Assembly: GCA_000014925.1 (NCBI GenBank)
Contig: CP000474.1
Coordinates: forward strand, 744,001-808,000
Source: Paenarthrobacter aurescens TC1
GTDB taxonomy: Bacteria > Actinomycetota > Actinomycetes > Actinomycetales > Micrococcaceae
Length of the DNA: 64,000 nucleotides
Reading direction: 5' to 3'
Of this stretch, positions 5,971 to 53,967 are shown piece after piece. The translations under genes and the position numbers were made by a program. Within the stretch, counting starts at the first letter, position 1. The number at the start of each line of letters is the position of its first letter. A model generated the notes under the pieces. It was given only the letters and a program-made list of their open reading frames with translations, had not been told where the DNA came from and did no database searches.

Positions 5971-6045
5971 CCCTCTCTCACATCCCTCGTGCTTGGCCGT
6001 GACCCTCTCTCACATTCCGGCAACATTTGGCCATCCCTCTCTCAG
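5971..6045 (+). repeat. Array A of the 32-base-period GTGAGAGAG family
   Basis: CCCTCTCTCA begins at 5971, 6003 and 6035: three cores spaced exactly 32 bases. The intervening bases are only partly alike. The array starts on the base after the ramB-like stop codon and ends 65 bases before the serpin start, with the CTCTCTCA strand reading toward the serpin gene. Related arrays lie at 15171, 16291, 18009 and 53879. Confidence 0.85.
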
Positions 6046-6110
6046 ATCGCGTGAGTTCCCACCACAAACGGAGCACCATGTGAGGACGACACCAAGCAGG
6101 GGGATGCGTC

Positions 6111-7412
6111 ATGAATCGAGTCCGCAAAGCGACAACGCTGATCGCGGCAGCCGCGCTGGTGAGCGGCTCGGCGACGATCAGTGCTTGCGCGCCCCAACCA
6201 GCCGACGTCGGGCTCTTGACGGCCGACGGCGTGACTCGCGTTTCGGTTCAAACTGCGGACTACTCTGCGCAGCTTGAGGCTTTCAATGCGTCAGCGCGCA
6301 AGCTCGGTGTCACGCTGCTCGCCGATGGCGGCGACTCCGGCAGCGGCAACGTGGTGTCGTCGCCCGCCAGCCTGCTGATTGCGTTGAGCATGCTCCGGTC
6401 CGGGGCGTCGGGGGTCACTGCTGCGGAGATGGACTCGGTTCTGGGTTTGCCGGCCGAAGGGCGAGACGAAGCGATGAACGCGCTGCTCGCCTCCCTTGAA
6501 AAGTTCGACGGCGACCCCGGCTCAGTGGACGAAGAGAACCCGCCGCAGAAGCCGGTCATGCACGCTGCCAACGGGCTGTTCGTGGACAAAGGGGTGCCCA
6601 CTGGCGAGGCTTTTCTGACCACGCTGGGTAAGCATTTTGGCACGGGCGTGTATCCGGTGAACTTCAGGGACGAGGCCGTGACCAAGCCCGCCATTGACCA
6701 GTGGGTCAGCAAAAACACCGGTGGGCGGATCAAGGAAGCCCCTGCACAATACAGTCCGGACAACACCTTCAGCCTGCTCAACGCCCTCTACTTCGCCGCA
6801 GCCTGGCAGGCTCCCTTCGACGCGAACGACACGGCGGACAGCCCCTTCACCAAGGCCGGAGGCGAAGTGATCAACGTACCCAGCATGCACTCATCACTCA
6901 CCATGGCCTACGCGGAAGCTCCGGGTTGGAAGGCAGTGGACCTGCCTTACGCCGAGGGCTTCGTGATGCGGCTGATACTGCCCGACGGCGGTGCGTCTGG
7001 TCCGGACGGTCCGGCTGCGGTTTCTGCGGAGGTGCTTGCCGATGTGGCGAGGGAGCTTTCCGGGGCACAACAGGACATGGTCCACATCAGCATGCCCAAG
7101 TGGGACCACAAAACCACGTTCGAACTGCGGAAAGTGTTCGAAACGCTGGGACTCAAGGACATGCTGGCGACTTCCACCGACTTCGATTCCATCCAGCAGG
7201 GTATGAAGCTGACGCAGGCGGCCCAGGCAGCCAACATCACTGTTGCTGAGAAAGGGACCATCGCTTCAGCGGTGACCCAAATCAATGCAGAGGCGTCCAG
7301 CGCGATGGTCCCGGAACGGAAGATCATCCTTGATCACCCGTTCCATTACCAGATCGTTCACAGTGAGACGGGCATGCCCCTCTTCACGGAGTGGGTGGCG
7401 GACCCGCGCTAG
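6111..7412 (+). CDS. Serpin-family lipoprotein (serine protease inhibitor)
   Basis: Predicted secreted, lipid-anchored serpin of 433 residues. Residues 1-26 form a signal peptide ending in a lipobox-like ISAC (Cys26). The serpin fold is marked by VVSSPASLLIALSMLRSGA (~81-99), NALYFAAAWQAPFD and the C-terminal LDHPFHYQIVHSETGMPLF. The hinge and reactive loop fall in EKGTIASAVTQINAEASSAM (~380-400), alanine/small-residue-rich as in inhibitory serpins. Start ATG 6111 follows a G-rich ribosome site. A role against host, predator or own proteases is inference. Its TAG stop overlaps that of the converging TetR gene within one CTAG. Confidence 0.9.
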   Translation: MNRVRKATTLIAAAALVSGSATISACAPQPADVGLLTADGVTRVSVQTADYSAQLEAFNASARKLGVTLLADGGDSGSGNVVSSPASLLIALSMLRSGASGVTAAEMDSVLGLPAEGRDEAMNALLASLEKFDGDPGSVDEENPPQKPVMHAANGLFVDKGVPTGEAFLTTLGKHFGTGVYPVNFRDEAVTKPAIDQWVSKNTGGRIKEAPAQYSPDNTFSLLNALYFAAAWQAPFDANDTADSPFTKAGGEVINVPSMHSSLTMAYAEAPGWKAVDLPYAEGFVMRLILPDGGASGPDGPAAVSAEVLADVARELSGAQQDMVHISMPKWDHKTTFELRKVFETLGLKDMLATSTDFDSIQQGMKLTQAAQAANITVAEKGTIASAVTQINAEASSAMVPERKIILDHPFHYQIVHSETGMPLFTEWVADPR

Positions 7413-8023
7413 CGGACCAGTCGCTCCACCAGGACTGCAGCTGCTTGAACAACCTCGTCGGCTGCCTGCTTGGATGCACTCAGAGCCACTTCCTGCCCGG
7501 ACACTGTCACGATGTCCGTGATCACCGCGACCGTGAGCCTGCCCAGGGTGTCGTCGCTGGCGCCGAGGAGCACGGTGTTCTGCCGGACCCATTCGCGGCC
7601 GCGTTCCCGCCTGAGTACTTCGAAGCCCGGGGGAGTGTCGCCTTCGATGAACACGCGCTCCAGATCCCGGTGCTTCCAGGTGTAGTCGAAGTAGCTGCGA
7701 CTGCCCACGTTGAACAGCGCTAAGGGATCGTCTTCGCCGGCCTTCCGGGCTTTGGCCACGGCCGCGGCGACCAGCCTTTCGTGCTCGTTTTGGTAGTGGT
7801 CCCAGAGCGCGAGGAAGAGTTCGGTCTTCCCTCCGAAGTGGTGATAGAGGCTGCCGACGCTGGATCCGGCGCGCGCCACGATGTCCGAGATGCTCGCGTC
7901 GGTGAAGCCATGCTGGACGAACACTTCGGTGGCAGCGTCCAGCAGGTTGCGTTGGGTGGCAGCTGTCCGGGTCCATTGCCAGGAGCCCGCGTTGTTGGCT
8001 ACTTCGGATGTCTTGCGGACCAT
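7409..8023 (-). CDS. TetR-family transcriptional regulator
   Basis: DNA-binding repressor of 204 residues. The N-terminal helix-turn-helix spans ~18-60 (RNLLDAATEVFVQHGFTDASISDIVARAGSSVGSLYHHF), and the rest is the variable ligand-binding domain. ATG 8023 is preferred because GAGGAG lies upstream at normal spacing; an earlier in-frame start would add eight residues. Divergent from the cytochrome-b-like gene across 303 bases containing three short palindromes, so it probably controls that gene and itself; the ligand is unknown. Confidence 0.88.
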   Translation of the reverse strand: MVRKTSEVANNAGSWQWTRTAATQRNLLDAATEVFVQHGFTDASISDIVARAGSSVGSLYHHFGGKTELFLALWDHYQNEHERLVAAAVAKARKAGEDDPLALFNVGSRSYFDYTWKHRDLERVFIEGDTPPGFEVLRRERGREWVRQNTVLLGASDDTLGRLTVAVITDIVTVSGQEVALSASKQAADEVVQAAAVLVERLVR

Positions 8024-8326
8024 GCTTTGGGCTCCTCTCACAGGCAAGGCAAAGACCGGAGTGTCGACCGGCCATTTTTTGGAATCCTACCTCCGAAAGA
8101 ATCCACATAGCCATCAACAAGCCTTGACTGCCCCGTGAAACACAGGAAATAATTCTGGAAGTCTGTTCTAGAAATACGTATTGCGGCATGTATCCGAATG
8201 CTGCGATTTTTGACGTCGAACGCCCCGAAACCCGGGTGCCGTTTTCACCGTCGGGCTGCAACTGGTTGAATCGCTATATAGCGCCAACTGGTCGCAGCCA
8301 AACAAGCCAGAGAGGAACGCGGCCTG
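8024..8326. promoter_or_regulatory. Divergent TetR / cytochrome-b-like promoter region
   Basis: Three perfect palindromes lie in this 303-base gap: TTCTAGAA (8166-8173), overlapping by one base AATACGTATT (8173-8182), and CGCTATATAGCG (8272-8283) 43 bases before the membrane-protein start. The last contains an AT-rich core that could also serve as a -10 element. They are plausible TetR operators; no coding frame here looks real. Confidence 0.5.
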
Positions 8327-9259
8327 ATGTCCGTTTCAAGCAAGTCGTCCGGGATCACGTCGAACAGGTGGTTCAAACCCGTCGTCGTCACCGCAGGAGC
8401 TTTGGTGGTGGCCCTCATCCTGGTGCTCGTGGCGCAATGGCTCCGGACCCTTCAGCCGGTCCAGCAGTTCCTGGTGGATTACCCCGGGCACTCGGCCGTT
8501 CCTGAGGGCGCTCCCACCGGCTTCCCCGCCTGGCTGGGGTGGCAACACTTCCTGAACATGTTCTTCATTGTCCTGATCATCCGTTCGGGCTGGCAGGTGC
8601 GGACCACCACACGCCCGGCGGCAAACTGGACCCGGAACAACAAGGGCTTCATCAAGACCAAGAACCCGCCCACCAAGATCAGCCTGGACCTCTGGTTCCA
8701 CCTGACGCTGGACGCGCTCTGGGTCCTGAACGGCATCATCTTCATCGTGCTGCTTTTCGCTACCGGTCAGTGGTTGAGGATCGTTCCCACCAGCTGGGAT
8801 GTCTTCCCCAACGCCGTCTCCGCCGGATTGCAGTACGCCTCGCTGAACTGGCCGGTTGAAAACGGTTGGAACAACTACAACAGCCTCCAGCTCCTGACCT
8901 ACTTCATCACGGTGTTCATCGCGGCACCGCTGGCCATCCTCACGGGCATTCGGATGTCCGGTGCATGGCCCAAGAAGGCTGCGATCAACAAGTTCTACCC
9001 GATCGAACTGGCCCGGAAGGTCCATTTCCCGGTGATGATCTACTTCGTGGCCTTCGTGATCGTCCACGTCACCCTGGTGCTGGCTACCGGCGCCCTGAGG
9101 AACCTCAACCACATGTACGCGTCGAACGACGATAACAACAGCTGGTGGGGCTTCGGCATCTTCGCGGCTTCCATCGTCTTCACTGCGGCCGCCTGGTTCC
9201 TTGCCCGCCCGCTGTTCCTGCGGCCGATCGCCTCGCTCATGGGCAAGGTCTCGCGCTAG
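8327..9259 (+). CDS. Cytochrome b561/b6-like membrane protein
   Basis: Integral membrane protein of 310 residues with about five to six helices. Histidines placed inside helices suggest bis-His heme ligation: WQHFLNMFFIVLIIRSGW (~near 82), LWFHLTLDALWVLN (~near 126), and a pair in KVHFPVMIYFVAFVIVHVTLVL (~228-245). This pattern belongs to the cytochrome b/b6 domain class that carries electrons to or from periplasmic partners such as molybdoenzymes, but no partner gene is adjacent. ATG 8327 follows GAGGA. Likely regulated by the divergent TetR protein. A strong terminator follows. Confidence 0.75.
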   Translation: MSVSSKSSGITSNRWFKPVVVTAGALVVALILVLVAQWLRTLQPVQQFLVDYPGHSAVPEGAPTGFPAWLGWQHFLNMFFIVLIIRSGWQVRTTTRPAANWTRNNKGFIKTKNPPTKISLDLWFHLTLDALWVLNGIIFIVLLFATGQWLRIVPTSWDVFPNAVSAGLQYASLNWPVENGWNNYNSLQLLTYFITVFIAAPLAILTGIRMSGAWPKKAAINKFYPIELARKVHFPVMIYFVAFVIVHVTLVLATGALRNLNHMYASNDDNNSWWGFGIFAASIVFTAAAWFLARPLFLRPIASLMGKVSR

Positions 9260-9290
9260 CGTTCACGCAAAGAAGCCCTCACGCAAAGAA

Positions 9291-9330
9291 AACAGCCGCC
9301 CCGGAAGAGTTTCCGGGGCGGCTGTTCTTG
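9291..9330. terminator. Bidirectional rho-independent terminator
   Basis: A perfect 16-base stem (arms 9291-9306 and 9311-9326) with loop GAGT lies between converging genes. It is flanked by A-rich sequence on the left and TTCTTG on the right, so it can terminate the cytochrome-like gene rightward and thiD leftward. Confidence 0.9.
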
Positions 9331-9344
9331 CATGTGCCGCAGAG

Positions 9345-10190
9345 CTAGCTCAAAGCCCCGCCCTGCCACAGGGCATCGAACGGCGCACCGGAGGACACCC
9401 GGTTCTTGATGCCGGCAGTCACGAAAGCCTTCGCAGTCCGGGCTGCTTCAAGGGGCGTCGCACCCTTGGCGAGCTCGGCGGTCACAGCTGCAGCAAGGGA
9501 GCAACCAGCGCCGGACACAGCCACTTCGCCAACCTTCGGGGCGCGGAGGACTTCCAGCGTCTCGCCGTCGTAGTAAACATCGACGGCGTCCGGGCCTTCC
9601 AGCCGCACGCCACCTTTGGCGAGGACTGCTGCACCGCTGATCTCGTGGATCCTGATAGCAGCAGCCTTGAGCGACTCTTCATCGCTAATGGTCAGCCCTG
9701 ATAGCGACTCCGCTTCGAAGTGGTTCGGCGTGACGAAGGTAGCCAGCGGCAGGATCTGGGCCTTCAGCGCCTGATCAGTGTCCAAGGCGTGGCCCGGCTC
9801 CTGGCCCTTGCAGATCAAAACCGGGTCCAAAACCACATTCGCGAAATCGCCGTCAGTCAGTGCCTTCTCCACGGTGCTGATGGTTGCCGGGCTTCCCAGC
9901 ATGCCAATCTTCACGGTGTCCAGGACCGAAGGTGCGCCGGAAGCGGCACCGTATGCCGCCGTCGTGGCCTCCAACTGGTCCGCGATGACCTGCTGGTCCA
10001 CCGGGACAAAACGGTGGTTCCAGTTGTCCTGCGGGTTGAAGGACACGATGCAGGTGAGGTTCGCTATGCCGAACACTCCGAGTTCCTGGAAGGTCTTGAG
10101 GTCGGCCTGCGCACCGGCGCCGCCGGTCGCTTCGGAACCGGCGATGGTCAGGGCAATGGCAGGGGCAACGGCTGAAGTCATGGTTTCCAT
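9345..10190 (-). CDS. thiD: Hydroxymethylpyrimidine/phosphomethylpyrimidine kinase
   Basis: Thiamine biosynthesis and salvage enzyme that phosphorylates HMP and HMP-phosphate. The 281-residue ribokinase-fold protein has the N-terminal ALTIAGSEATGGAGAQADLKTF (substrate site), VLDPVLICK (~115), TPNHFEAESLSG (~150), and the late glycine loop with catalytic Asp in VAVSGAGCSLAAAVTAELA. Position 10190 is taken as start; ATG 10181, three codons inside, has a slightly better GGAA upstream and is equally possible. No other thiamine gene or TPP riboswitch is visible. It lies 43 bases downstream of the TAXI-lipoprotein gene on the same strand and may be read through from it. Confidence 0.9.
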   Translation of the reverse strand: METMTSAVAPAIALTIAGSEATGGAGAQADLKTFQELGVFGIANLTCIVSFNPQDNWNHRFVPVDQQVIADQLEATTAAYGAASGAPSVLDTVKIGMLGSPATISTVEKALTDGDFANVVLDPVLICKGQEPGHALDTDQALKAQILPLATFVTPNHFEAESLSGLTISDEESLKAAAIRIHEISGAAVLAKGGVRLEGPDAVDVYYDGETLEVLRAPKVGEVAVSGAGCSLAAAVTAELAKGATPLEAARTAKAFVTAGIKNRVSSGAPFDALWQGGALS

Positions 10191-10233
10191 TTTGCCAGTT
10201 GCCCGGCCGTGGACCGATTTTGGCCCGTGAGGG

Positions 10234-11223
10234 CTACCCATGCAGTGCCCGATAGGCGGCCTCCGCCGCCGGATGCAAGGGGACACCGGCCGTGTTGATT
10301 AACGTCTCCGGGCTAAGGAATTGCACGCCGGTGCTGGATTTCGGAACCAGATCCTGGGCTTGTTCCACCAACAGCTCCACAGTTTGCCGAACAACATGGT
10401 CCGCCAGATCGCTGCGGCACAGAAGAAGGTTCGCGACGCCGACGGTCCACACAGCCGGCGCGTCCCCGTAGCTGTTGGCGGGGATCAGGACGCGGTCGTA
10501 GAAGAACCCGGACTGAGCCCGCGTGGCCGGAATGAGGTCGGAGAGGTCAAGCAGCCGGACGCCGAGGTCCCGCGCCGCGGCAGCGATGGGTGCCGTAGGT
10601 ACGCCTCCCGACTGGATCATGACGTCGATGGACCCGTCCTTCAAGGCAGCCAGAGCTTGGTTCAAACCAAGGTTCACCTGCTTCACAGCCCGGTCCGGTT
10701 CAGACAGTCCCGCGGCCGCAATGATCCGTCCGGCCGTGAGCGTTGTCCCCGAGCCCACTTCGCCCACGCCCGCAGCCTTCCCTGCCAAGTCAGTAAAGGT
10801 GCGGATTCCGCTGTCCTCCCGCACCAGGCAGTGGACGTAGTTCTGGTACACCTTCCCAAGCGCCACCAACTTGCTTTCGGGCTGCGCTGCCTTACCGGCG
10901 GGCGCGGCTGCTTGGGCTGCTGCGTCGGCCAGCGCGACGGCGAAGGTCGCCTCGCCGGACAGGACCCGCTGGATGTTCTCCAGACTGCCGCCGGTGGTCA
11001 ATGCGACGGCCCTTCCGGCGACGCGCTCCCGCTGCAGCAGCGCCGCCAGGAGGGTGGCGAACTCCAGATAGAAGCCGCCGGCTTCACCACCGGCGACGGT
11101 GAGCTCCTGCAGGGGTTCCTCCGGAGTGCACGCGGCGGTGGCCGTGAGCAGACTGCCGCCCAGGCTAAGTGCGACGGCGGTTTGAAGAACACTCCGCCGG
11201 GACATGACAGGGAACTCAAGCAT
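10234..11223 (-). CDS. TAXI-family solute-binding lipoprotein, no TRAP permease nearby
   Basis: Periplasmic-type binding protein (329 residues) of the TAXI branch of TRAP receptors. It opens with a twin-arginine-like SRRSVLQ, a hydrophobic stretch and lipobox TAAC (Cys ~31), so it is probably membrane-anchored outside. The ligand fold begins LTVAGGEAGGFYLEFATLLA and continues with GVGEVGSGTTLTAGRII (~145). Its ATG overlaps the end of the sensor kinase gene by 8 bases. No DctQ/DctM membrane subunits are adjacent; pairing with a kinase suggests a sensory co-receptor, as proposed for other binding-protein/kinase pairs. That role is inference. Confidence 0.85.
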   Translation of the reverse strand: MLEFPVMSRRSVLQTAVALSLGGSLLTATAACTPEEPLQELTVAGGEAGGFYLEFATLLAALLQRERVAGRAVALTTGGSLENIQRVLSGEATFAVALADAAAQAAAPAGKAAQPESKLVALGKVYQNYVHCLVREDSGIRTFTDLAGKAAGVGEVGSGTTLTAGRIIAAAGLSEPDRAVKQVNLGLNQALAALKDGSIDVMIQSGGVPTAPIAAAARDLGVRLLDLSDLIPATRAQSGFFYDRVLIPANSYGDAPAVWTVGVANLLLCRSDLADHVVRQTVELLVEQAQDLVPKSSTGVQFLSPETLINTAGVPLHPAAEAAYRALHG

Positions 11224-12631
11224 GACCGTCTTCCCGTGGTCGTGCGAACTCGAGACGGGCAGTGAGCCCGTGCGGCTCGCGCGATTCCAGGACCAACTTC
11301 GCGCCATTTGCTTCTGCCAGCCGCTCCACGATGGTCATGCCCAGCCCGTTGCCAGGGATACTGCTGTGCTGCGGCGCCCGCCAGAACCTGGTGGTGGACG
11401 CGGCGAGCTGTTCGGCCGGGAGGCCGGGACCGTCGTCGGAAATCTCGACGGCGGTGCCTCCTTTCGTAGCTTTGATGGCCACGGTAATGCGGGCACCCGG
11501 GGCGTACTTGATGGCATTGGCGAGGAGTTCGCCCACCATGTGTGCGAGTTCGTCGGGGTCGCACACGATCGGGCTGTCAGACGGTGGGCCCACCAACGTC
11601 AGCTGTGCCCCCGCAAGGTGAGCTGCCGGCGTCGCCCTTTCCACTTCGCCCTGCAGGACCGGGAAAGGATTGGTGATGCCCAAACGCTGGTGCCCTGATT
11701 CCTGTTCCGCACGGGCAGACCCTTCAGAAGCCCGGTGTTCAGCGGTAGCCAGCTTCAGCACGCCTTCGAGCATTTCCTCAACCCGCTCAAGTTCCGCCAC
11801 CACGCCGGCCGCAGCTTCTTTCCCGGGTTCCGATCGCAGGGCGAGCTGCAGCAGATCGATGCGCAGGCGCAGCGCGCCAACAGGGTTCCGGAGCTGATGT
11901 GAAGTATCGGCGATGAGCCGGCGCTGTGACTCCATGCTTTCGGTCACGGTATCTGCCATGGCCGTGAAGGACCGGCTCAGCTCGCGGAGCTCAGGCGGAC
12001 CGGCCTCGGGAAGCTGGCTGGTCTTACCCGTGGCTTCGAGCTCGTGGACTGCCTTGCTCAGTCTGTGGACCGGCCGAAGAACCCAAGCCGTGATGCGGGA
12101 CGCCGCCACCAGGAGCAGCGCACCCAGCGCCGCCGCGGCAAGTCCAACCACGAGCCACCGCTCGCGTAGTTTCTGCCGCGCGGCGTCGAGGTTGACTTCA
12201 ACAACCACTTCGCCGAGGACCTGGCTCGCTGTGCCGAAGGGCCTGGAAATGATGTCGTTGCCGGTCCCGAAGGCGCGAATGGGGTTCAGCGTGGTGTCGC
12301 TGAGGTTGAGACTCGCCCGGTTGAGGGCGTCGCGGACCTCGGGCTGGTCCTCGCTGAGGCCGCCGGAGCGGATTTTCTTTTCTTGAAGCCGGATCAGGAT
12401 CCCTTCACCATAAAGCTCGGAATACCGGTCCATTTCCCGTTGCAGTTGAGTTGTGTTGCCGTCCTCTGCGGAGTCGCTGGCCAGCTGCGCGAAACGGTTA
12501 AGGGCTGCGACACGGTTGATCTGCAGTTCCTGGGTGAGCTCTCGGCTGGCCGATGTGAGGATCACGCTGGAAACCGTCACAACGATGACCACCACAAGCA
12601 GGCTCAGGATGGCCAGAACGCGGACTTTCAC
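11216..12631 (-). CDS. Two-component sensor histidine kinase
   Basis: Membrane sensor kinase of 471 residues. Order: helix ~5-27, extracytoplasmic sensor region ~28-155, second helix ~158-180, HAMP-like linker, dimerisation/phosphoacceptor helix with His in ADTSHQLRNPVGALRLRIDLL (~245), and HATPase domain with LANAIKYAPGARITV and SDDGPGLP. The GTG start sits inside the response-regulator stop (GTGA), and its own end overlaps the TAXI gene, so all three are translationally coupled. The short sensor domain may receive its signal through the TAXI protein (inference). Confidence 0.93.
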   Translation of the reverse strand: MKVRVLAILSLLVVVIVVTVSSVILTSASRELTQELQINRVAALNRFAQLASDSAEDGNTTQLQREMDRYSELYGEGILIRLQEKKIRSGGLSEDQPEVRDALNRASLNLSDTTLNPIRAFGTGNDIISRPFGTASQVLGEVVVEVNLDAARQKLRERWLVVGLAAAALGALLLVAASRITAWVLRPVHRLSKAVHELEATGKTSQLPEAGPPELRELSRSFTAMADTVTESMESQRRLIADTSHQLRNPVGALRLRIDLLQLALRSEPGKEAAAGVVAELERVEEMLEGVLKLATAEHRASEGSARAEQESGHQRLGITNPFPVLQGEVERATPAAHLAGAQLTLVGPPSDSPIVCDPDELAHMVGELLANAIKYAPGARITVAIKATKGGTAVEISDDGPGLPAEQLAASTTRFWRAPQHSSIPGNGLGMTIVERLAEANGAKLVLESREPHGLTARLEFARPREDGHA

Positions 12632-13296: not shown

Positions 13297-13389
13297 GTCC
13301 TTTGGCTTGCCGTGGGCTGGTCCGCGGGTCTGGTCCGTTCGAGCTGGTTGGGCCAGTCCGTAGGGCTTGTCCGCTACTAGAGCCTAACG

Positions 13390-13448: not shown

Positions 13449-13475
13449 GGCGCACAGATCAGGCGCAGAAACAGA

Positions 13476-14885: not shown

Positions 14886-15170
14886 CAATGAACCTTCCTG
14901 GACGGCAGCGTTTTGCAACGGCCGTGTCTTGCATGAGTTCGTTCTGTCCATGAAGCTCGTGCTCATGGCGTCCTTGCGCATGGCTCTTCGTCGACTAAGA
15001 AAGGCCCTCCAGGGTGAAGAGGACATGTTCCAAACTATGGGTGATGCACGGCACAGCCCTAGTCCGCGAGGGATTTCCTAACACTTCCTTAGGTTTCGGC
15101 TTGAGTTTGGTGGGACCCCAACCCGCGAACGCCAAGGCTCGACGGCGGCGGCTCGGCTACGCGGCACGAC
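14886..15170. other. Intergenic region upstream of the KgtP-like gene
   Basis: This 285-base gap separates the leftward permease gene from repeat array B. Apart from the permease ribosome site, the one structure I see is CCTAA/TTAGG around a 7-base spacer (15077-15093), a possible operator. Short open frames across it lack support. Confidence 0.4.
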
Positions 15171-15276
15171 GCTCTCTCACATCACTCGGGTTTGGCTGCG
15201 TCGCTCTCTCAGGTCCCTCGGGTTTGGTTGCGTCGCTCTCTCAGGTCCCTCGGGTTTGGTTGCGTCGCTCTCTCAG
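15171..15276 (+). repeat. Array B of the 32-base-period GTGAGAGAG family
   Basis: GCTCTCTCA begins at 15171, 15203, 15235 and 15267, exactly 32 bases apart. Units two and three are identical over the full 32 bases, unit one differs at a few positions, and unit four is truncated after the core. The most regular of the five arrays; it ends 35 bases before the methyltransferase start, CTCTCTCA strand reading toward that gene. Confidence 0.92.
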
Positions 15277-15311
15277 TAGCTTTCGGGAACGGCCGGAGTT
15301 ATCTTCGTGGC

Positions 15312-15956
15312 ATGGGCGCAGTTCTTCGAACAGCTCGCGTAATGCTGCAGGAGGCAGCGAGGATCCCGCTGCCGCCAGGACAGGTTGTTGGCCTGGTGCT
15401 TGATGAAGTCCTCAATCGCCTGCGCCCCGCTCGCGTCGCAGAGCCCAATGCCCGGCTCAAAGCAGCCGGTGTTGGCTTGGCATTGGTTGGCGCGGGGATC
15501 ACCGGGTGGGCAGTCGCGGAGCGCCGGCGTAAAACGACCGGAAACTTTTCCTTGGGCCACCCCGAGGACCTGGTCACCAGCGGACCCTATGCCCTGAGTC
15601 GCCACCCAATGTACCTGGGGTGGTGGCTCATCCATGCGGGAGTTGCAGTCAACCGAGGTTCTGCTTGGGCTGTGATGACTTTGCCTGCTGGAATGCTGGT
15701 GGAACACCTTGGCGCGCAGTGGGAAGAGTCTGCGCTCCAGGAGCGGTTTGGCCAGTCCTACGCAGACTATGAGAGGGATGTTCCCCGCTACGTCGGATCG
15801 CCGGCGTGGTTGATTCGCACCAGCTTCCAGACAGCGAGGCGGCCAACGCCGGCTGCGAAGGCGATGGATAAAGGGAAGGTCCATGCGGAGGAGCTCCAAA
15901 ATCCTCCGAAGGGGACGCAGATGATCGCCCCGGCCGCGAAGAATGCGGCTACATGA
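15312..15956 (+). CDS. Membrane methyltransferase of the isoprenylcysteine/phospholipid type
   Basis: Small integral membrane protein (214 residues) related to ICMT/phosphatidylethanolamine N-methyltransferase proteins, which use S-adenosylmethionine. Motifs near the SAM site are LVTSGPYALSRHPMYLGWWLIHAG (Arg-His-Pro, ~97-102) and the late ALQERFGQSYADYERDVPRYV (~139-160). ATG 15312 is chosen because upstream codons are only translated repeat array. The last ~56 residues are antisense to the converging membrane-protein gene and look unlike the family, as if an earlier stop had been lost. Substrate unknown. Confidence 0.7.
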   Translation: MGAVLRTARVMLQEAARIPLPPGQVVGLVLDEVLNRLRPARVAEPNARLKAAGVGLALVGAGITGWAVAERRRKTTGNFSLGHPEDLVTSGPYALSRHPMYLGWWLIHAGVAVNRGSAWAVMTLPAGMLVEHLGAQWEESALQERFGQSYADYERDVPRYVGSPAWLIRTSFQTARRPTPAAKAMDKGKVHAEELQNPPKGTQMIAPAAKNAAT

Positions 15957-16273: not shown

Positions 16274-16290
16274 GATTACCTCCGAGTGAT

Positions 16291-16365
16291 GTGAGAGAGC
16301 GTTCGGCTGAAGGGGCGGTTAGGTGAGAGATGGTTTGGCTGAAGGGGCGGTTATGTGAGAGAGCG
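16291..16365 (-). repeat. Array C of the 32-base-period GTGAGAGAG family
   Basis: GTGAGAG/GTGAGA cores begin at 16291, 16323 and 16355, spaced 32 bases; the middle core is degenerate (GTGAGAGAT). The linker GGCTGAAGGGGCGGTTA is nearly the same between both pairs. The leftmost flank, read on the minus strand (GCTCTCTCACATCACTCGG), equals the first unit of array B. The array covers the epimerase stop codon and runs to the ribosome site of the membrane-protein gene. Confidence 0.88.
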
Positions 16366-17259
16366 TGTGGGGTTCGCGATCTGGTTGAGGGCGCCGGTAA
16401 GGCAGGGGTAAACAAACGTGAAGCCGGCACCGAGCAGTTTTCGGGGCTCCACCCATCTGCTCTTCAGCACCAACTCCGTTTGCGTACGGATCAGAACGGC
16501 TCCGGCCTCCAGCAGCCACGCTGGCGTCGGGATGCCAAAGGGGACACCCATGCTCCGTCGAACCAGGGCCATCAGCTCCCGGTTGTCCACGGGGTAGGGC
16601 GACGCTGCGTTCACCGGACCCGTCACTCCGGGATCCGCGTGGATAAACACCACCGCCCGGAACAAGTCCTCCACATGGATCCAGCTGAACTTTTGCGTGC
16701 CCGGGCCCATGTGTCCACCCAGGCCAAGCCGGGCCAGGTTACGGAGGGGGCTCATGACCCCGCCGGCCCCCAACACGATCGCAATGCGCAGCGGCACCTT
16801 CCGCGTAGCCGGCACAACAGCAGCCGCTAACTCATCCTCCCAAGCCCGGGCTACGTCCACGGAGAACCCGCTGCCCAATTCGCCCGAGACCTCCGACTGT
16901 GGGTGATCTTCGGCGTGCCGGTAGATGGTTCCAGTACTCGAGTTGATCCACGTCCGGGGCGGTTCGGCGCAGGCAGCCACAGCCCGGCCCAATGCACGTG
17001 TGGTCAGAACGCGGGAGTCCAGAATCTCCCGCCGGTGCTTCTCGTCGTAGCGGCAATTCACAGACCGTCCGGCGAGGTTCACCAGCAGCTCGGCGCCGTC
17101 CAGCACTTTGGTGATGGCGCCGTCGTCGTGCCATTGCGCGTCCGCCGAGGCGTCCCGCCCAACGGTCCGGACCTGCCACCCCTCGGCAATGAACCGCTGC
17201 TTGAAGTAGCCGCCAATGAAGCCGGAAGCACCCGCGATCACCACCGTCCGCGACATCAT
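16351..17259 (-). CDS. NAD-dependent epimerase/dehydratase, TIGR01777/SDR39U1 type
   Basis: Atypical short-chain dehydrogenase of 302 residues, second gene of a TetR-led operon. The dinucleotide-binding start VVIAGASGFIGGYF is at ~5-18, with LLVNLAGRSVNCRY (~60) and NSSTGTIY (~109) typical of this subfamily, and the C-terminal domain (DUF1731-like) containing ELVLKSRWVEPRKLLGAGF. Enzymes of this class are poorly characterised. The ATG overlaps the TetR stop (ATGA). The last codons (RSLT and stop) lie in a 32-base repeat core, so the present 3' end was probably shaped by the repeat. Confidence 0.88.
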   Translation of the reverse strand: MMSRTVVIAGASGFIGGYFKQRFIAEGWQVRTVGRDASADAQWHDDGAITKVLDGAELLVNLAGRSVNCRYDEKHRREILDSRVLTTRALGRAVAACAEPPRTWINSSTGTIYRHAEDHPQSEVSGELGSGFSVDVARAWEDELAAAVVPATRKVPLRIAIVLGAGGVMSPLRNLARLGLGGHMGPGTQKFSWIHVEDLFRAVVFIHADPGVTGPVNAASPYPVDNRELMALVRRSMGVPFGIPTPAWLLEAGAVLIRTQTELVLKSRWVEPRKLLGAGFTFVYPCLTGALNQIANPTRSLT

Positions 17260-17985: not shown

Positions 17986-18008
17986 AAACGGCGACAGGAT
18001 GGTGGGAG

Positions 18009-18082
18009 GTGAGAGAGGGCTGCTCGGGAGGGGGTGGGATGTGAGAGAGGGTTGCTCGGAAGGGGGTGGGATGTGAGAGAGG
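18009..18082 (-). repeat. Array D of the 32-base-period GTGAGAGAG family
   Basis: GTGAGAGAGG begins at 18009, 18041 and 18073, spaced exactly 32 bases. The two linkers, GCTGCTCGGGAGGGGGTGGG and GTTGCTCGGAAGGGGGTGGG, differ at two of 20 positions. It lies between the divergent TetR operators and the queuosine-precursor transporter gene, with the CTCTCTCAC strand reading toward the TetR gene. Confidence 0.92.
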
Positions 18083-18200
18083 GTCCGTGGTGGGAGAATG
18101 GAACCGGTGCCGGGCCCGATGCCCCACCAACCACAGTGCTAATACAGCGGGGCAACCTCACTATGGGGGCCTGCGCGAACCACTACGAAATGGATGACCC

Positions 18201-44792: not shown

Positions 44793-44893
44793 GACTTGCT
44801 GTCTGCCCTCACTCCATAAATATGGGCAGGATTACTCACAGTTTCGGGATGCCATAAATGGCGCACGGGGCACATACGGGCCGCAACGTAAAC

Positions 44894-46504
44894 ATGGAGG
44901 GTGAAGTTGACAGCGATCAACACCTCATTGAGCTGGTGAGAGGCGGAGACATATCTGCCTTCGATGGACTCTATAAACGTCACCTGTCCATTGCGTCCTC
45001 CATTGCCAAACGGAATGTCGACAATCCGAGCGACGCCGAGGATGTTGTGGCTGAGGCTTTTCAATCCGTTCTGCAAAGCATCGTAGGGGGAAAGGGACCG
45101 CGTGCCTTCTTCAGGGCGTACCTGCTGTCCATAGTCACCCGGCTATCCCATCAACGCAATCGAAAATCAAACAAAATCCTGCTCAGCGGTGATGATCCTG
45201 TTTTGGACGAAGCACTGGTCGAATCAGACGCCGTCATCAGCGCTTTCGAGTCACGCACAGTGGCCAAGGCGTTCCGCGCCTTGCCGGAACGGTGGCAGGC
45301 TGTTCTCTGGTACATGGACGTCGAACGCATGAAACCCGCAGCCGTGGCACCGATTCTTGGGGTGACCCCCAACGCCGTTTCTGCACTCGCTGTCCGTGCG
45401 CGTGAGGGCCTACGACGCCAATACCTCCAAAGTCATCTCGCGAACCAGACGGGCAGGTGCGCCGAATTCGCGTCCAAGCTTGGCAGCTTCCTCAGGGGTG
45501 GGCTACCCAGCGCTACTGAACGCATGGTTCGCAATCACCTGGATAGCTGTTCCACATGTACGGCCGCGCTTACGGAACTCGAAGACGTTCAGGGAAGCAT
45601 GCGGGCGGTACTGCTGCCCCTGGTGACGGGAATCCCCTTGGCTATGTGGGCGGGTAAAGGCGCTGCGCTCGGTTTTCTTAGCGGGATGGTCCCGGCCAAA
45701 GTAGCCCTCGCAGTCCCTGCTTTGGCGCAGCCAGCCGTTATGGCTCTCTTTGCAGCGGCAGGGGTTGGCCTGATGCTGGGGGCAGGGGGATTAGCTGAGG
45801 GACTGGCTCCGGAGATATTTGCAGAACAGCAGACAGTTGAGACATCCGCAGCGCGAATCGAAAGCGACTTAAGGCTGGCCTCCCCGTCGCCAAGTCAGAC
45901 CGAGGCTCCGGACCCAGCACCGTCGGCACAGACTCAGCCGCTGCCTGCCGCACCCGTGCCGCCCCCCGTTGAGCCTCTTCCCGTGCCGGCCCCGGAGCCG
46001 GTTGAGCCTCTTCCCGCGCCGGCCCCGGCAGAGTCCTTGCCGTCGCCGCCGAAGGCGTTGCCTCAGCCGATAGCTACGACTCCTGCCCCCGTTTCGCCGC
46101 CAGCAAAGCCCCCCGCGCCGGCCGCTCCTACCGGTTCGTCAGCGGCCGTCCCGGCAAAGGTCTCGGGCACCGTACGGGAGATCCGTGAGAGAAGTAGCTC
46201 CAGCGGTACCGCCATGGAAATCGACTTCAATGCCTCCGGCACCGGCCCCTTGGGCAGCGGCAAGGTTGTGTTTTCGGTAGGAAGGCATGCGCGCATTGTG
46301 GAGAGCTCACTGCGTGCGCCCGACGGGTGGGAGTGTTCCATGGAGGGGCAGTCCGTCGTCATGTGCCTCACGGAATCGGTGCAGCGAGGCAGCCTCCACT
46401 TTCATGTGACCGCGGAATCCGTACGCTCCAGGGACGGCGGCGTCTTCAACTATTCCTTGAGTGGGAAAGGTCTTGTCCAAGGCGACTTCGCGTACCGGTA
46501 CTGA
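44894..46504 (+). CDS. ECF-like sigma factor fused to zinc-finger anti-sigma, membrane and outer domains
   Basis: 536-residue fusion. Sigma region 2 spans ~10-90 (ISAFDGLYKRHLSIASSIAK, DAEDVVAEAFQSVL) and region 4 ~125-180 (LPERWQAVLWYMDVERMKPA, VTPNAVSALAVRAREGL). Next a zinc anti-sigma motif: C189-x25-H215-x3-C219-x2-C222. Hydrophobic helices occupy ~238-305; a Pro/Ala linker ~330-420 with an 11-residue repeat; then a beta-rich outer domain ~425-536. Such a protein would be held inactive at the membrane until released, for example by proteolysis. Start ATG 44894 is uncertain (ATG 44858 adds 12 residues). First gene of the polysaccharide-type cluster. Confidence 0.88.
   Translation: MEGEVDSDQHLIELVRGGDISAFDGLYKRHLSIASSIAKRNVDNPSDAEDVVAEAFQSVLQSIVGGKGPRAFFRAYLLSIVTRLSHQRNRKSNKILLSGDDPVLDEALVESDAVISAFESRTVAKAFRALPERWQAVLWYMDVERMKPAAVAPILGVTPNAVSALAVRAREGLRRQYLQSHLANQTGRCAEFASKLGSFLRGGLPSATERMVRNHLDSCSTCTAALTELEDVQGSMRAVLLPLVTGIPLAMWAGKGAALGFLSGMVPAKVALAVPALAQPAVMALFAAAGVGLMLGAGGLAEGLAPEIFAEQQTVETSAARIESDLRLASPSPSQTEAPDPAPSAQTQPLPAAPVPPPVEPLPVPAPEPVEPLPAPAPAESLPSPPKALPQPIATTPAPVSPPAKPPAPAAPTGSSAAVPAKVSGTVREIRERSSSSGTAMEIDFNASGTGPLGSGKVVFSVGRHARIVESSLRAPDGWECSMEGQSVVMCLTESVQRGSLHFHVTAESVRSRDGGVFNYSLSGKGLVQGDFAYRY
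45968..46033 (+). repeat. 33-base coding repeat in the sigma-fusion linker
   Basis: Two adjoining copies (starting 45968 and 46001) of a 33-base unit encode VEPLPVPAPEP and VEPLPAPAPAE in the proline-rich linker. This suggests linker length changes by repeat slippage. Confidence 0.75.
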
Positions 46505-46618
46505 GCCCAATTCGTGGCAGGGTCTGCGTCACGATCCTGCTGCCCCGCCCACTTAGTCAACGGCGGTGCCTGGGAAATCCGGAAGCCGCACACATCTCAA
46601 CTCCATCTTGAAGGAATT

Positions 46619-48444: not shown

Positions 48445-49736
48445 CGTTCCCGAGCGTGGCGTTGGTGGTGGTGTACGTTGGCGGTTTGGTGATTCTCGGT
48501 TTTGGCATGGCCAAAATCGTCTATGTTCCCATGGCGTTGTATTTCGACTGGCTTTACCGCTCCATCTGTGCCCGGCATCGGTATTCCGTGTTGAGCGATA
48601 GGCCTTTGGTGTCGGTGATTGTCCCGGGCTACAACGAGGCCGTGGTGATCACCGGCTGTGTTGAGTCCATTTTGGCCAGCCGGTACTTGCGCCTGGAAGT
48701 CATTCTGGTGGATGACGGTTCCACGGATGAGACCGCCTCCATCATGGAAGGCTTGGCGCAGCAGTATGACCGGGTGCGGTTCCTTTCGCAGGCCAACGCG
48801 GGCAAGGGCGCCGCTTTGAATTGTGGGATTGCAGCAGCCCTCGGGGACATTCTGATGTTTGTGGACGCCGATGGAGTCTTTGCTCCAGACACGTTGATAC
48901 ACATGCTGGAGGGTTTTGACGATCCGAAAGTGGGCGCAGTGTGCGGCGATGACCGGCCGGTCAACCTCGATCGCCTGCAGACCATGATGCTTGCGATCCT
49001 GAGCCACGTGGGTACGGGATTGGTCCGTAGGGCTCTATCCCTCATGAATTGCCTGCCCATCGTTTCCGGAAACATTGGCGCCTTTCGCAGCGATTTGGTC
49101 CGGGAGCTGGGAGGGTTCCACGAGGACACGCTCGGGGAAGACCTTGAGCTGACATGGCGGGTCTACAAAGCCGGATACCGGGTTCGATTCCAGCCCAAAG
49201 CACTCGTGTACGCCGAGTCTCCCTCCACCATGGGTGGCTTGTGGCGTCAGCGGGTCCGCTGGTCGCGAGGGCTGCTCCAGACGCTGAGGTTGCACAGCGG
49301 AATGCTCGGGAGCCGCCGCTACGGAATGTTCGGGGCGTTCCTGGTTTTCAACGCCATCACCATGGTGTTGATCCCTATTCTGCAACTCGTCGTCCTGGCT
49401 CTACTACCGTTCCTGTACGTGGCAGGCATGGGACCCGTCCCAGCTGAAGTCCTCGCAATCCTCGGCTGGCTCGGGGTCTTTGTGTCATTGGCGCTGATCG
49501 TCTTCTCCGTTGGCCTGAACCGCTCATGGCGGGATCTGCGATTCCTGTGGACGCTGCCACTGTGGCCCTTTTACTCGGTGTTTGTGGGCTTGGCCCTGGC
49601 CAGCGCAATCGTGAAAGAAATCCGTGGCAGTCCGGCCCGTTGGAACAAGCTGCAGCGGACAGGCATCAAGTCTGTGACTGCCACGCATTCTGTGACCTCC
49701 ACTGATGTGTCACAACGGCAGGAAGCGCACGCGTGA
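48441..49736 (+). CDS. Membrane glycosyltransferase family 2 (PgaC/hyaluronan synthase-like)
   Basis: 431-residue processive-type beta-glycosyltransferase. An N-terminal helix (~5-35), then the GT-A domain: SVIVPGYNEAVVI (~58-70), VDDGSTDET (~90-98), FVDADGVFAPD (~140-150), GEDLELTWRVYKAG with the catalytic Asp, and the QxxRW motif in WRQRVRWSRG. Three to four C-terminal helices form the export channel. The layout matches synthases of poly-N-acetylglucosamine or hyaluronan. GTG 48441 overlaps the ATP-grasp stop. It is the likely polymerase of the cluster. Confidence 0.92.
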   Translation: MTFPSVALVVVYVGGLVILGFGMAKIVYVPMALYFDWLYRSICARHRYSVLSDRPLVSVIVPGYNEAVVITGCVESILASRYLRLEVILVDDGSTDETASIMEGLAQQYDRVRFLSQANAGKGAALNCGIAAALGDILMFVDADGVFAPDTLIHMLEGFDDPKVGAVCGDDRPVNLDRLQTMMLAILSHVGTGLVRRALSLMNCLPIVSGNIGAFRSDLVRELGGFHEDTLGEDLELTWRVYKAGYRVRFQPKALVYAESPSTMGGLWRQRVRWSRGLLQTLRLHSGMLGSRRYGMFGAFLVFNAITMVLIPILQLVVLALLPFLYVAGMGPVPAEVLAILGWLGVFVSLALIVFSVGLNRSWRDLRFLWTLPLWPFYSVFVGLALASAIVKEIRGSPARWNKLQRTGIKSVTATHSVTSTDVSQRQEAHA

Positions 49737-50848
49737 AGGGCGTCCCGGGTACTGCAGCGTCCCTAACGTTGGCCATTGCCGTTGTGATGTCGCTCCTTCT
49801 GACGTCCGCCTGTGCGGTGGAACCGAAGAATCGTCCCGCGGACCGCATGGTCAATCTGGGTTTCGAAGATGTGGTCAACAGCGATCCCTTGTACTTGACC
49901 GGACTCGCCGAACGCTTGGACTCGGTTGATGCAACAGCGGTATCGCTCGCAGTAGGACGCACGGACTGGACGGCTTTCCCTTTGCAGGGCCAAACCGAGA
50001 CGGAATCCAGTGAGGTTGCTCGGACCGGTCGGGACTACGTGGCCGAGTCAATTTCGGCGTTGGAGTTCGCGGAGGATGGAAGGAAACGCGATGTTGTCCT
50101 CACCATAGATGCTCTGCTGGACCGCGCGCTCACCGCGGAACCGGCACTTGCCGGGCGGGACACGTCCGGAGCAGCGTCCTCAACCTTTGCCAGTGTGTCG
50201 TCCTTGCGGCATGGAAAAGCCGGCTCCCGGTTGGCCTCCCTTGCGGCGGTGATCGCCGGTAGATACCGGCCCACGGCGGTCAATCTGACGGAGCTGATGT
50301 TCGATGACTTCACTTTCGGTGAAGAGGATCTCATCGACTTCAAAGCCACCACGGGAGCCAAGGATTGGCCGAGAAAGAACGATGGTTCGATCGATGCGTC
50401 GGACGCGAGTATCAGCGGCTGGCGCAGTGAGGCTATGGCGGACATCGTCCTGAAGGTGCGGACCGCCGTCGAACCTTATGGCGTCAAACTCGATATGGAC
50501 GTGCGCGCACCGCGTGAATCACCCTCACTGGACCGGGCGGACAGCGGACATGACTACGATCTCCTGCTTAAGCAGGCGGATCGGCTTCATGTTTGGGAAT
50601 ATGTGGGACTGAACAGTGAGAGTTCGCCGCAAACCAAGGAATTGGCGGAAGCAATGAACCGCAGGGCAGGCTCGCGCATTTCCTTGTCCGTGGGGCTCTG
50701 GGGCAATGATGGCCGGATATCAGCCGGGGAATTAGCCACCGCACTGCGGGATGCTGTCCTCGGCGGGGCGACGTCAGTGTCCGTAACACCGGCGAGTCTC
50801 ATGGAAGGCCAGCACTGGGACGTCCTCAAAGAGGCCTGGGCCACGTAA
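49733..50848 (+). CDS. Lipoprotein, possible TIM-barrel polysaccharide hydrolase
   Basis: 371-residue exported lipoprotein: signal peptide to ~26, lipobox LTSAC (Cys27). The body suggests a glycoside-hydrolase-like barrel: PTAVNLTELMFDDFTFGEEDLIDF (~183-206) with clustered acidic residues, KLDMDVRAPRES (~248) and ADRLHVWEYVGLN (~281), loosely recalling the hydrolase domain of PgaB. Family not assigned. GTG 49733 overlaps the GT2 stop, so it ends the operon and probably trims or modifies the polymer outside the cell. Confidence 0.6.
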   Translation: MKGVPGTAASLTLAIAVVMSLLLTSACAVEPKNRPADRMVNLGFEDVVNSDPLYLTGLAERLDSVDATAVSLAVGRTDWTAFPLQGQTETESSEVARTGRDYVAESISALEFAEDGRKRDVVLTIDALLDRALTAEPALAGRDTSGAASSTFASVSSLRHGKAGSRLASLAAVIAGRYRPTAVNLTELMFDDFTFGEEDLIDFKATTGAKDWPRKNDGSIDASDASISGWRSEAMADIVLKVRTAVEPYGVKLDMDVRAPRESPSLDRADSGHDYDLLLKQADRLHVWEYVGLNSESSPQTKELAEAMNRRAGSRISLSVGLWGNDGRISAGELATALRDAVLGGATSVSVTPASLMEGQHWDVLKEAWAT

Positions 50849-50966
50849 TGGAGGGGTAGGCGTCGGCTTTTAGCTGGCGTACGCTGACCGCATGGGGCTG
50901 TTGGGCGGAAAGGTTGTCCTTCAAGGTCATTCCCGCCCGGACGGTGACGCCAAAATCTGAGACGCA

Positions 50967-50996
50967 TTCTTTTGTTGAGTTCTGTGCGGGTAAGAT
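50967..50996 (+). promoter_or_regulatory. Probable ppc promoter
   Basis: TAAGAT (50991-50996) is a good -10 element, with TTCTTT (50967-50972) as a weak -35 at 18-base spacing, giving a leader of ~75 bases before ppc. Otherwise the 228-base gap shows no structure. Confidence 0.5.
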
Positions 50997-51076
50997 CCCG
51001 TAGGAAACATTAGTAATCCGGCTCACAGTATCCAGCGCAGTGTACGGGCCACACCAGATCCCAAAGGTAAGTATCA

Positions 51077-53875
51077 ATGGTTCACACTGCCCATCAAGAC
51101 ACCGATCTCGCTGCCGAACTGCGTGCCGACGTACGCCGGGTTTCCACACTTCTCGGCGAGTCCTTGGTACGACAACACGGTCCGGAATTGCTCCAACTCG
51201 TGGAGCAAGTTCGCTTGCTGACCAAGGAGTCCAAGGAAGCCGCACGGGGCGGCGCGGATGCCACCGGCCCGTGGAGCGCGCACGACGTCGTTGCCCAGGT
51301 TCGCGAGTTGCTCGCCTCCCTGCCGCTGGACCAGGCGACTGACCTGGTTCGTGCCTTTGCGTTTTACTTCCACCTCAGCAACGCGGCGGAGCAAGTACAT
51401 CGCGTCCGTGGACTGCGCACCCGCCAGGAAAAAGACGGTTGGCTGGCGAAGGCGGTCTCAGAGATAGCGGGCCAGGCGGGACCCCAGGTTCTGCAGGATG
51501 TGATCAACGGACTCGACGTCCGCCCCATTTTCACGGCGCACCCCACCGAGGCTTCACGTCGTTCTGTGTTGGACAAGGTCCGCAAACTTTCGGACGTCCT
51601 TGCTGAGCCCACGGCTGAGGGGACCTCCGCGCGGCGCCGTCAGGACCAGCAACTCGCTGAAATCATCGACCAAATGTGGCAGACCGACGAGCTCCGCCAA
51701 GTACGCCCCACTCCTGTGGATGAGGCCCGGAATGCCATCTACTACCTGAACAGCATTCTGACTGACGCCATGCCGGAAATGCTGACGGACCTTTCGGAAC
51801 TTCTGGCCGAGCATGGTGTCACACTCCCTGCCGCCGCCGCACCGCTGAAGTTTGGTTCGTGGATCGGTGGCGACCGCGACGGCAACCCGAACGTTACTGC
51901 TGCTGTCACCAAGGAAATCCTGCAGTTGCAGAACCAGAATGCTGTCCGCATCAGCATTGCCCTCATCGACGAACTCATCTCGGTACTTTCCAACTCAACG
52001 GCTCTTTTTGGGGCCGACCAAGAGCTGCTGGATTCGATCACCGCGGACCTCAAGAACCTCCCCGGACTGGACAAACGCATCCTTGAACTGAACGCGCAGG
52101 AGCCCTACAGGCTCAAGCTGACCTGCATCAAGGCCAAGCTCATTAACACCGGTCGCCGCATTTCAGCTTCGACGTATCACGAGCCGGGCCGCGACTACGC
52201 AACCACTCCTGAGTTGCTGGCGGAGTTTGGACTGCTTGAAGCCTCGTTGCGGAACCATTCCGCTGGACTGGTGGCAGACGGCGCCCTGGCCCGCGTCCGC
52301 CGGGCAATCGCTGCCTTTGGTCTGCACCTGGCAACCTTGGACATACGTGAACACGCCGATTACCACCACGATGCTGTGGGGCAACTCGTGGACAGGCTCG
52401 GCACCGAAAAGGCTTACGGCGAATTGACGCGTGAGGAACGCTTCACCTTCCTGGGGGCCGAGCTGGCTTCCCGCCGCCCGCTCTCCGGCCACCCGATCAA
52501 GCTTGAAGGCACTGCGGACGGCACATATGACGTCTTCCGGAGTATCCGCCAGGCCCTGCACACCTATGGCCCGGATGTCGTGGAAACCTACATCATTTCC
52601 ATGACCCGCGGCGCCGATGATGTCCTGGCCGCAGCAGTCCTTGCCCGCGAGGCCGGTCTGATCGACCTCTTCAGCGGCAAGCCCCATGCCAAGATCGGGT
52701 TCGCTCCGCTATTGGAAACGGTGGAGGAACTCCGGGCCTCGGCTGAGATTGTGGACCAGTTGCTGTCCGATCCGTCCTACCGGGAACTTGTCCGCCTCCG
52801 CGGAGACATCCAGGAGGTCATGCTGGGTTACTCCGATTCCAATAAGGAATCCGGCGTGATGACCAGCCAGTGGGAGATCCACAAGACCCAGCGCAAGTTG
52901 CGCGATGTGGCGGCCAAGCACGGCGTCCGCGTTCGTCTCTTCCACGGCCGCGGTGGATCCGTTGGCCGCGGTGGCGGACCCACCTACGATGCCATCATGG
53001 CTCAACCGAACGGCGTGCTGGAAGGTGAGATCAAGTTCACCGAGCAGGGTGAGGTCATCTCGGACAAGTACTCCCTCCCCGAGCTGGCCCGCGAAAACCT
53101 GGAGCTCTCCCTGGCCGCCGTGATGCAGGGCTCGGCGCTGCACCGCACTCCGCGTACATCGGATGATGAACGTGAGCGCTACGCCAATGTCATGGAAACC
53201 ATCTCGGATGCAGCGTTCGCCCGCTACCGCACGCTGATTGACGATCCCCAGCTTCCGGCGTACTTCCTGGCGTCCACACCTGTGGAGCAGCTGGGTTCAT
53301 TGAATATCGGTTCCCGGCCCTCCAAGCGTCCGGATTCCGGTGCGGGACTTGGTGGCCTGCGGGCCATTCCGTGGGTTTTCGGCTGGACTCAGTCACGCCA
53401 GATCGTTCCCGGCTGGTTCGGAGTGGGCTCCGGTTTGAAGGCTGCGCGGGAAGCCGGCGACACGGATCAGTTGCTGGAGATGATGGACCGCTGGCACTTC
53501 TTCCGGTCGGTCATCTCCAACGTGGAGATGACCTTGGCCAAGACGGACATGGAAATTGCCGGTCATTACGTTTCGTCCCTGGTCCCCGAGGAACTGCACC
53601 GCTTGTTCCACATGATTCGTGACGAGTACGAGCTCACCGTTGCCGAGATCGAACGGCTGACGGGTGAGATGGAGTTGCTGGACGCCCAGCCTACGCTGAA
53701 GCGTTCACTCGAAATCCGCGACCAATACCTGGATCCGATCAGCTATCTGCAAGTGGAGCTCCTTCGCCGCGTGCGCGAGGAGCAGCTGTCCGGGGGCGAG
53801 ATCGACGAGCGCCTCCAGCGGGCCATGCTCATCACCGTCAACGGCGTAGCCGCCGGCCTGCGCAATACCGGCTAG
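51077..53875 (+). CDS. ppc: Phosphoenolpyruvate carboxylase
   Basis: Anaplerotic enzyme making oxaloacetate from PEP and bicarbonate; 932 residues, as usual in actinobacteria. Active-site marks are [13 protein letters not shown] (His155), [20 protein letters not shown] (Lys590 region), [19 protein letters not shown] (from 622), and the C-terminal [16 protein letters not shown] with the effector site. ATG 51077 is used. Replenishes the TCA cycle on sugars, whereas aceA/aceB at the other end of the window serve C2 growth. Its stop is three bases from repeat array E. Confidence 0.97.
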
Positions 53876-53878
53876 CAA

Positions 53879-53967
53879 CCCTCTCTCACATCCCTCGGGT
53901 TTCCCCGGATCCCTCTCTCACCCGGTGAGAGAGGGATCCGTCCAAGGGCGTGGGATGTGAGAGAGCG
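53879..53967. repeat. Array E of the GTGAGAGAG family, inverted
   Basis: Two cores in one orientation (CCCTCTCTCA at 53879 and 53911) face two in the other (GTGAGAGAG at 53925 and 53957); within each pair spacing is 32 bases. The inner cores form a 35-base palindrome: 17-base perfect arms (53906-53922, 53924-53940) around one base. Starting three bases after ppc, it can act as terminator as well as protein site. Confidence 0.92.

Follow-up and report, generated by a model that had tools for sequence, protein, structure and literature searches.

A stretch of 64,000 nucleotides from Paenarthrobacter aurescens TC1 (contig CP000474.1, positions 744,001 to 808,000 of the forward strand; hereafter the window) carries short arrays at the borders of genes, in which one core sequence, TGAGAGAG, returns every 32 bases. 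What are these arrays, and what could they do at the places where they lie? In this study, computational analysis established the arrays, their period, a helical lattice of spacings, a polarity relative to genes, a fit to stop codons, the conservation of sites and a set of core variants, or dialects, among relatives. We tentatively favour one possible answer, by analogy: the arrays may be polar transcription-boundary elements made of DNA, working like the stoperators of phages.

The window holds 17 cores in six arrays; 16 are exact TGAGAGAG and one, in the middle of the array at 16291, is GTGAGAGAT. A preliminary description of this DNA had counted the same 17 cores but only five arrays, whereas the locus at 53879 consists of two arrays facing apart. 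The exact 32-base period that it reported holds in each same-strand array; at 16291 this counts the GTGAGAGAT core, which lies midway between exact cores set 64 bases from each other. The exact 9-mer GTGAGAGAG occurs 12 times in the window, compared with a shuffle mean of 0.52 and a highest shuffle count of 3. The arrays were also described as touching gene starts or ends and never sitting in a gene; the latter is not strictly correct, because an epimerase gene shares its final ~12 bases with the array at 16291. No Rfam RNA family matched within the window at the gathering score.

The preliminary description implied that the core would be more frequent than by chance, that its periodicity would extend beyond the five loci and that it would be conserved in relatives, and the wider counts bear this out. 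In the genome of origin (G000; 5.23 Mb, three contigs), GTGAGAGAG occurs 193 times against 13 for the reversed control, with at least 2 of the 193 inside 23S rRNA genes, and TGAGAGAG-N24-TGAGAGAG, which sets the cores at exactly 32, occurs 126 times against 0 for the control. One of 41 array groups lies inside a called gene, as a lone core. A sample of 119 genomes was composed of G000, 72 others of the same genus and 46 from other genera of the order; exact pairs were detected in 38, all of them within the genus (73 genomes, counting G000); 30 of these genomes have at least five pairs and 8 have one or two. A family-level search matched 43 of 395 genomes and 2 of 32 sampled genera, and a looser pattern, GTGANNGAGNGT twice at 32, matched 28 of 325 genomes, 17 in one and 11 in the other of these two genera, the control giving 0 in every genome. 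Among 80 rows listed from a scan of named genomes, 69 belonged to Arthrobacter, Pseudarthrobacter, Paenarthrobacter or other Micrococcaceae and 11 to other bacteria, ten of these with a single match. The stretches with few genes behind L098 and L106 turned out to be rRNA operons, and minus-oriented arrays lie between an upstream gene and the 16S gene of two rRNA operons (L398 2359-2430 and L106 2255-2358).

An origin from phages or plasmids was rejected, on soft grounds. No match was obtained among 50,697 phage records with one array as BLAST query, one plasmid record (Arthrobacter sp. StoSoilB13) matched the L104 array, and none matched a hairpin query from genome G058; 19 viral contigs gave 20 matches, which were taken as chance level with no expectation computed. 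These negatives are soft because BLAST is weak for such short arrays. In a second explanation, the arrays are dispersed repeats similar to repetitive extragenic palindromic (REP) sequences and bacterial interspersed mosaic elements (BIME), formerly mobile, enlarged in tandem by unequal crossing-over and tolerated at gene ends with no dedicated function. The arrays are indeed dispersed and extragenic, include tandem and inverted dimers and occur in two genera only, and units within an array resemble each other more than units of different arrays. We nevertheless regard this explanation as unlikely, since it predicts neither the lattice nor the stop-codon fit described below, and sites persist across species though the core changes. 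The REP-associated tyrosine transposase (RAYT; PF01797, Y1_Tnp) is absent from G000 and was detected in a single genome of the 101 searched in the genus; transposition of the RAYT/REP type was rejected on this near absence.

Units were aligned with one linker per array in G000 (35 arrays), G058 (22) and G066 (18). The unit of G000 runs from TGAGAGAG through S-G-W-Y, an S-rich part, a W-tract at about positions 18-21 and another S-rich part to GGGATG, which is followed by the next core; G058 has CATTAAG in place of GGGATG, and the unit logo is not palindromic. The linkers had been described as tolerant, which holds in part, as the unit also contains the W-tract and a conserved block ahead of the next core. 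The loci of these three genomes were preselected as array-bearing, mostly via 32-base pairs, with steps then measured freely, and adjacent same-strand cores were 32 apart in 153 of 164 cases; the remaining steps were 64 (five), 23 (two) and 21, 25, 33 and 96 (one each). Inverted arrays face apart in nearly every case: 19 of 21 two-orientation blocks were divergent, and a convergent core pair occurred once. The divergent gaps, measured from CTCTCTCA to TGAGAGAG, were 15 (eleven), 5 (two), 37 (two), 26, 47, 79 and 127.

Most divergent gaps fall on a helical lattice. To test the spacing seen in these three genomes, a pattern permitting any gap from 0 to 30 was applied to 28 other genomes and gave 223 forward matches, 75 of them listed, from 11 genomes. 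Among these 75, the gaps were 4-6 (17), 15 (45), 25-27 (12) and 11 (1), thereby placing 74 in class; the 15-base class has a recurrent centre and may be inherited, and among the listed matches outside it 29 of 30 are in class, compared with 21% under an even spread. For gaps of 31-61, the 75 matches listed come from 6 of 29 genomes, and 67 of them deviate by no more than 1 from 37, 47 or 58; many of these rows are 0-30-gap sites plus one 32-base unit, and all gap rows are partly dependent through orthologous sites. Single hairpins of another dialect have gaps of 37 (16) and 36 (3). As read from sequence, gaps quantised in this way speak for a protein bound to one face of double-stranded DNA; RNA folding offers no reason for a lattice. 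The preliminary description had proposed that a protein could bind the same side of the helix at each core. This fits the geometry, and the whole-turn spacing of divergent cores lends it independent support; as an interpretation it is partly supported. The polarity towards stop codons, the divergent arrangement, the core dialects and the hairpin versions of relatives were not part of that description.

The arrays also have a direction relative to genes. A total of 125 gene ends were counted with a core from 15 nucleotides inside to 150 nucleotides behind the stop, and the nearest core was sense (CTCTCTCA in the mRNA sense, with the C-rich strand) at 103 of them. At 0-20 nucleotides behind the stop, 59 of 62 gene ends were sense and 3 antisense. 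Single-orientation arrays were counted apart because divergent arrays put a sense core first by mere order; 22 were sense and 3 antisense within 20 nucleotides of the stop (overlaps included), 34 were sense within 150 nucleotides, and 17 were sense and 9 antisense at gene starts. G000 alone contributed 35 sense and 11 antisense gene ends. In 13 of these 35 the core lies exactly 3 bases past the stop, which places the stop codon inside the unit; the 13 stops are TAA (8) and TGA (5) with no TAG, whereas TAG is the stop of 25 of the 58 genes called in the window. A core 3 bases past a TAA or TGA stop means that the stop is read within the S-G-T-Y part of the unit. The polarity and the stop-codon fit direct attention to transcription leaving genes, and for this reason a polar protein boundary is favoured.

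Array blocks (n = 74) lay between convergent genes in 35 cases and tandem genes in 29. The gaps of the window longer than 50 bp (n = 34), a small background that contains the window's own arrays, comprised 3 convergent, 20 tandem and 11 divergent. This convergent preference (35/74 blocks versus 3/34 gaps) is in keeping with a REP/BIME-like repeat, and also with a binding array for a chromosome-organising or topology protein, such as gyrase or a nucleoid protein, at which transcription would not be stopped. Convergent gene ends are where positive supercoils meet, the sites on DNA are phased, and E. coli BIMEs are bound by gyrase. Strict stop-codon polarity and core dialects would be unexpected for gyrase or general nucleoid proteins, and we consider such an array very unlikely. 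The notion of gene cassettes between inverted arrays seems less likely and was dropped, as at many other loci the arrays simply trail the 3' ends of the outer genes. Small open reading frames were seen between inverted arrays in L101, L144, L154, L118 and L131; by eye, two are VOC-family-like and one is GNAT acetyltransferase-like.

The sites are conserved in relatives while the core drifts. The ppc gene end was matched in 71 of 71 genomes searched and 30 loci were retrieved, of which 27 were read and 3 excluded (two insertions, one contig end). By eye, an inverted repeat is present in all 27; its core is of the GTGA type or related to it and varies, with forms that include GTGAGAGAG, GTGATRGMGC, GTGAGCGAG, GTGAGCGCG and others. 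The flanks of window sites A, B, C and D (Table 1) could be anchored in 3, 4, 7 and 8 of 11 relatives, and an array was present in every case except B in G068; the cores at these sites include TGAGCGAG, TGAGGGAG, TGAGTGAG, TGAAAGAG and TGCGAGAG. At the G068 locus orthologous to window 15172 (L346), the place of array B is taken by a different short tandem repeat, built around GACGGCGG and CACGTTAGCGTC. A relaxed dialect search gave matches in 12 of 12 genomes, with only 7 matches in G006 and with control counts of 21 in G008 and 10 in G048, and some genomes (G039, G067) have mixed dialects. In genomes poor in GTGAGAGAG, GTGATRGMGC-type hairpins occur instead, most of them located at gene ends and with changes on both arms (20 loci, four genomes). 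Presence or absence in the genus was dropped as a lead to a partner gene because these genomes carry other dialects.

Further features of the arrays in relatives were observed. In the 2+2 hairpins of G058 (L117-L132; 9 hairpins, by eye), the W-tracts of the arms are mostly non-complementary (A/A or T/T), thereby breaking the long palindrome. Inserted DNA splits arrays at two sites in G060, by eye the same segment in opposite orientations, and splits the array at ppc in G023 (loci involved: L337, the ortholog of window 18010, L168 and L167, both at ppc); the inserts look like insertion sequences.

The dialects raise the possibility of a DNA uptake sequence (DUS) for natural transformation. Neisserial DUS likewise have dialects and inverted pairs at terminators, according to excerpts of PMC3630211, and the cores here differ between relatives. 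However, 193 copies in 5.2 Mb compare with thousands in DUS genomes (excerpts of PMC3630211), 1 of 41 array groups is intragenic whereas DUS in genes are common, and uptake requires neither a 32-base step nor a polarity at stops. A function in uptake is therefore highly improbable.

Several observations weigh against a polar boundary made of protein-bound DNA. The gene ends were taken from a home-made gene caller; the nearest core was antisense at 22 of 125 gene ends, as were 14 of 48 single-orientation arrays within 150 nucleotides; and 10 of the 74 array blocks are flanked by divergent genes, a setting that offers no gene end. Eight of the 75 listed gaps of 31-61 are off the lattice (34, 39 twice, 42, 43, 51, 52 and 60), divergent gaps of 127 and 11 occur, and the steps in relatives, though mostly 32, include 29, 30 and 33. 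Moreover, the C strand has 46% C and 16% G over 52 arrays, as in a Rho site, and at ppc the sense RNA forms a more stable fold than its antisense counterpart in 22 of the 27 genomes read (related rows).

These last two points speak for an RNA-level 3'-end element, in which a C-rich transcript would load Rho at single arrays or a long hairpin would end or protect the mRNA at divergent arrays. The sense polarity, the position behind stops and the changes on both arms of the relatives' hairpins also agree with it. Such an element is rather unlikely in our assessment, because it leaves gaps in helical turns unexplained and because the C-rich core would be base-paired in a hairpin but unpaired in a single array, which one RNA signal cannot reconcile. 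Single-orientation arrays fold weakly and are not hairpins (e.g. -0.17 per base for array A), the sense strand was the more stable in only 4 of 10 tandem-gene hairpins of the other dialect, and the ppc intergenic sequence of G000, the one site read, has no U-tract. Single-orientation and divergent arrays have a common core, step and polarity, and a reading on double-stranded DNA accounts at once for the step, for the lattice and for the two kinds of array.

Under the favoured reading of the arrays as polar DNA boundaries, a putative sequence-specific protein would bind the asymmetric core (TGAGAGAG-S-G-W-Y in G000) once per 32-base unit on double-stranded DNA, and three helical turns per unit would bring all bound copies to one face. 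Where an array lies behind a stop with its C-rich strand in the mRNA sense, the nucleoprotein would stop or insulate transcription on its way out of the gene; a pair of arrays that face apart, in register with the helix, would guard the intergenic region from both sides. The binding protein, the effect on transcription and the co-evolution of protein and dialect are thus what we infer from the patterns. A wider proposal, with polar nucleoprotein boundaries across the chromosome, a dedicated protein on phased arrays behind stops and dialects co-evolving across the Arthrobacter group, seems doubtful at present. If it holds, a protein- and orientation-dependent element would end or fence transcription at gene ends throughout a whole chromosome, which to our knowledge is known only from phages. 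With motif, unit, helix face and orientation all defined, the protein could be fished out and a single reporter series could test the effect. Moreover, the arrays present a natural example of a motif that shifts genome-wide while its sites stay fixed. No paper describing the repeat was found among the matches listed from the open-licence PubMed Central (PMC) literature.

The arrays of the window and two other features are given in Table 1.

Table 1 Position, strand, cores and gene context of the arrays and other features in the window
Feature	Position	Strand	Cores	Context
Array A	5968..6048	-	three: 5973, 6005, 6037	starts inside TGA stop (5968-5970) of plus-strand helix-turn-helix (HTH)/IrrE-domain gene 4456-5970; stop-to-core distance 3
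Array B	15170..15276	-	four: 15172, 15204, 15236, 15268	upstream of phospholipid-methyltransferase-like gene 15312-15956
Array C	16288..16366	+	three: 16291, 16323 (= GTGAGAGAT), 16355	last unit overlaps 3' end (~12 bases) of minus-strand epimerase gene 16351-17259; TAA stop 16351-16353 in unit
Array D	18001..18084	+	three: 18009, 18041, 18073	flanked by divergent genes for TetR (minus) and a Vut_1 transporter (plus)
Array E, left arm	53878..53921	-	two	cores 6 bases past TAG stop (53873-53875) of phosphoenolpyruvate (PEP) carboxylase gene 51077-53875
Array E, right arm	53925..53968	+	two	faces apart from left arm; 5 bases between inner TGAGAGAG cores; end 16 bases ahead of next gene (53981-54286)
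Serpin gene in a bacterium	6111-7412			PF00079, E 5e-73; directly downstream of array A
Other tandem repeat	45953-46026			period 33; sequence unrelated to arrays; within called gene

The arrays share single traits with several known systems. Some copies are hairpins right behind stops, as in intrinsic terminators; unlike these, single-orientation arrays do not fold, and there is no U-tract at ppc in G000. Dialects between related species and inverted pairs at gene ends recall the DUS of Neisseriaceae, as described in excerpts of PMC3630211, but the arrays are low-copy, tandem, polar and hardly ever intragenic. Excerpts of PMC3733652 describe REP/BIME sequences of the GTAG and CGTC families, with which the arrays have in common a dispersed and extragenic distribution, a location downstream of genes and in convergent regions, and foldable inverted dimers. 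They differ in that the unit is not a palindromic stem-loop of 20-40 bp, the tandem step is fixed at 32 bases and the transposase family of the GTAG type is nearly absent; according to the same excerpts, CGTC REPs lack a RAYT transposase anyway (PMC3733652).

The stoperators of cluster A mycobacteriophages (L5 type) provide the comparison drawn in the favoured reading. In PMC6550527 and PMC9283540, stoperators are described as asymmetric sites of 13-14 bp, oriented with transcription and mostly distant from promoters; they block elongation, an action lost on reversal, and the L5-type repressor is said to bind them without cooperativity. The arrays differ in lying on host chromosomes rather than across a temperate phage genome, in having no known repressor, and in their arrangement behind stop codons, as divergent pairs and as tandem arrays phased to the helix by a 32-base step. 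They resemble stoperators, as portrayed in these two sources, in being asymmetric, oriented with transcription, intergenic and present in many copies, and in the drift of the motif between related genomes. By this analogy the arrays may work like stoperators, though we do not file them as members of that class.

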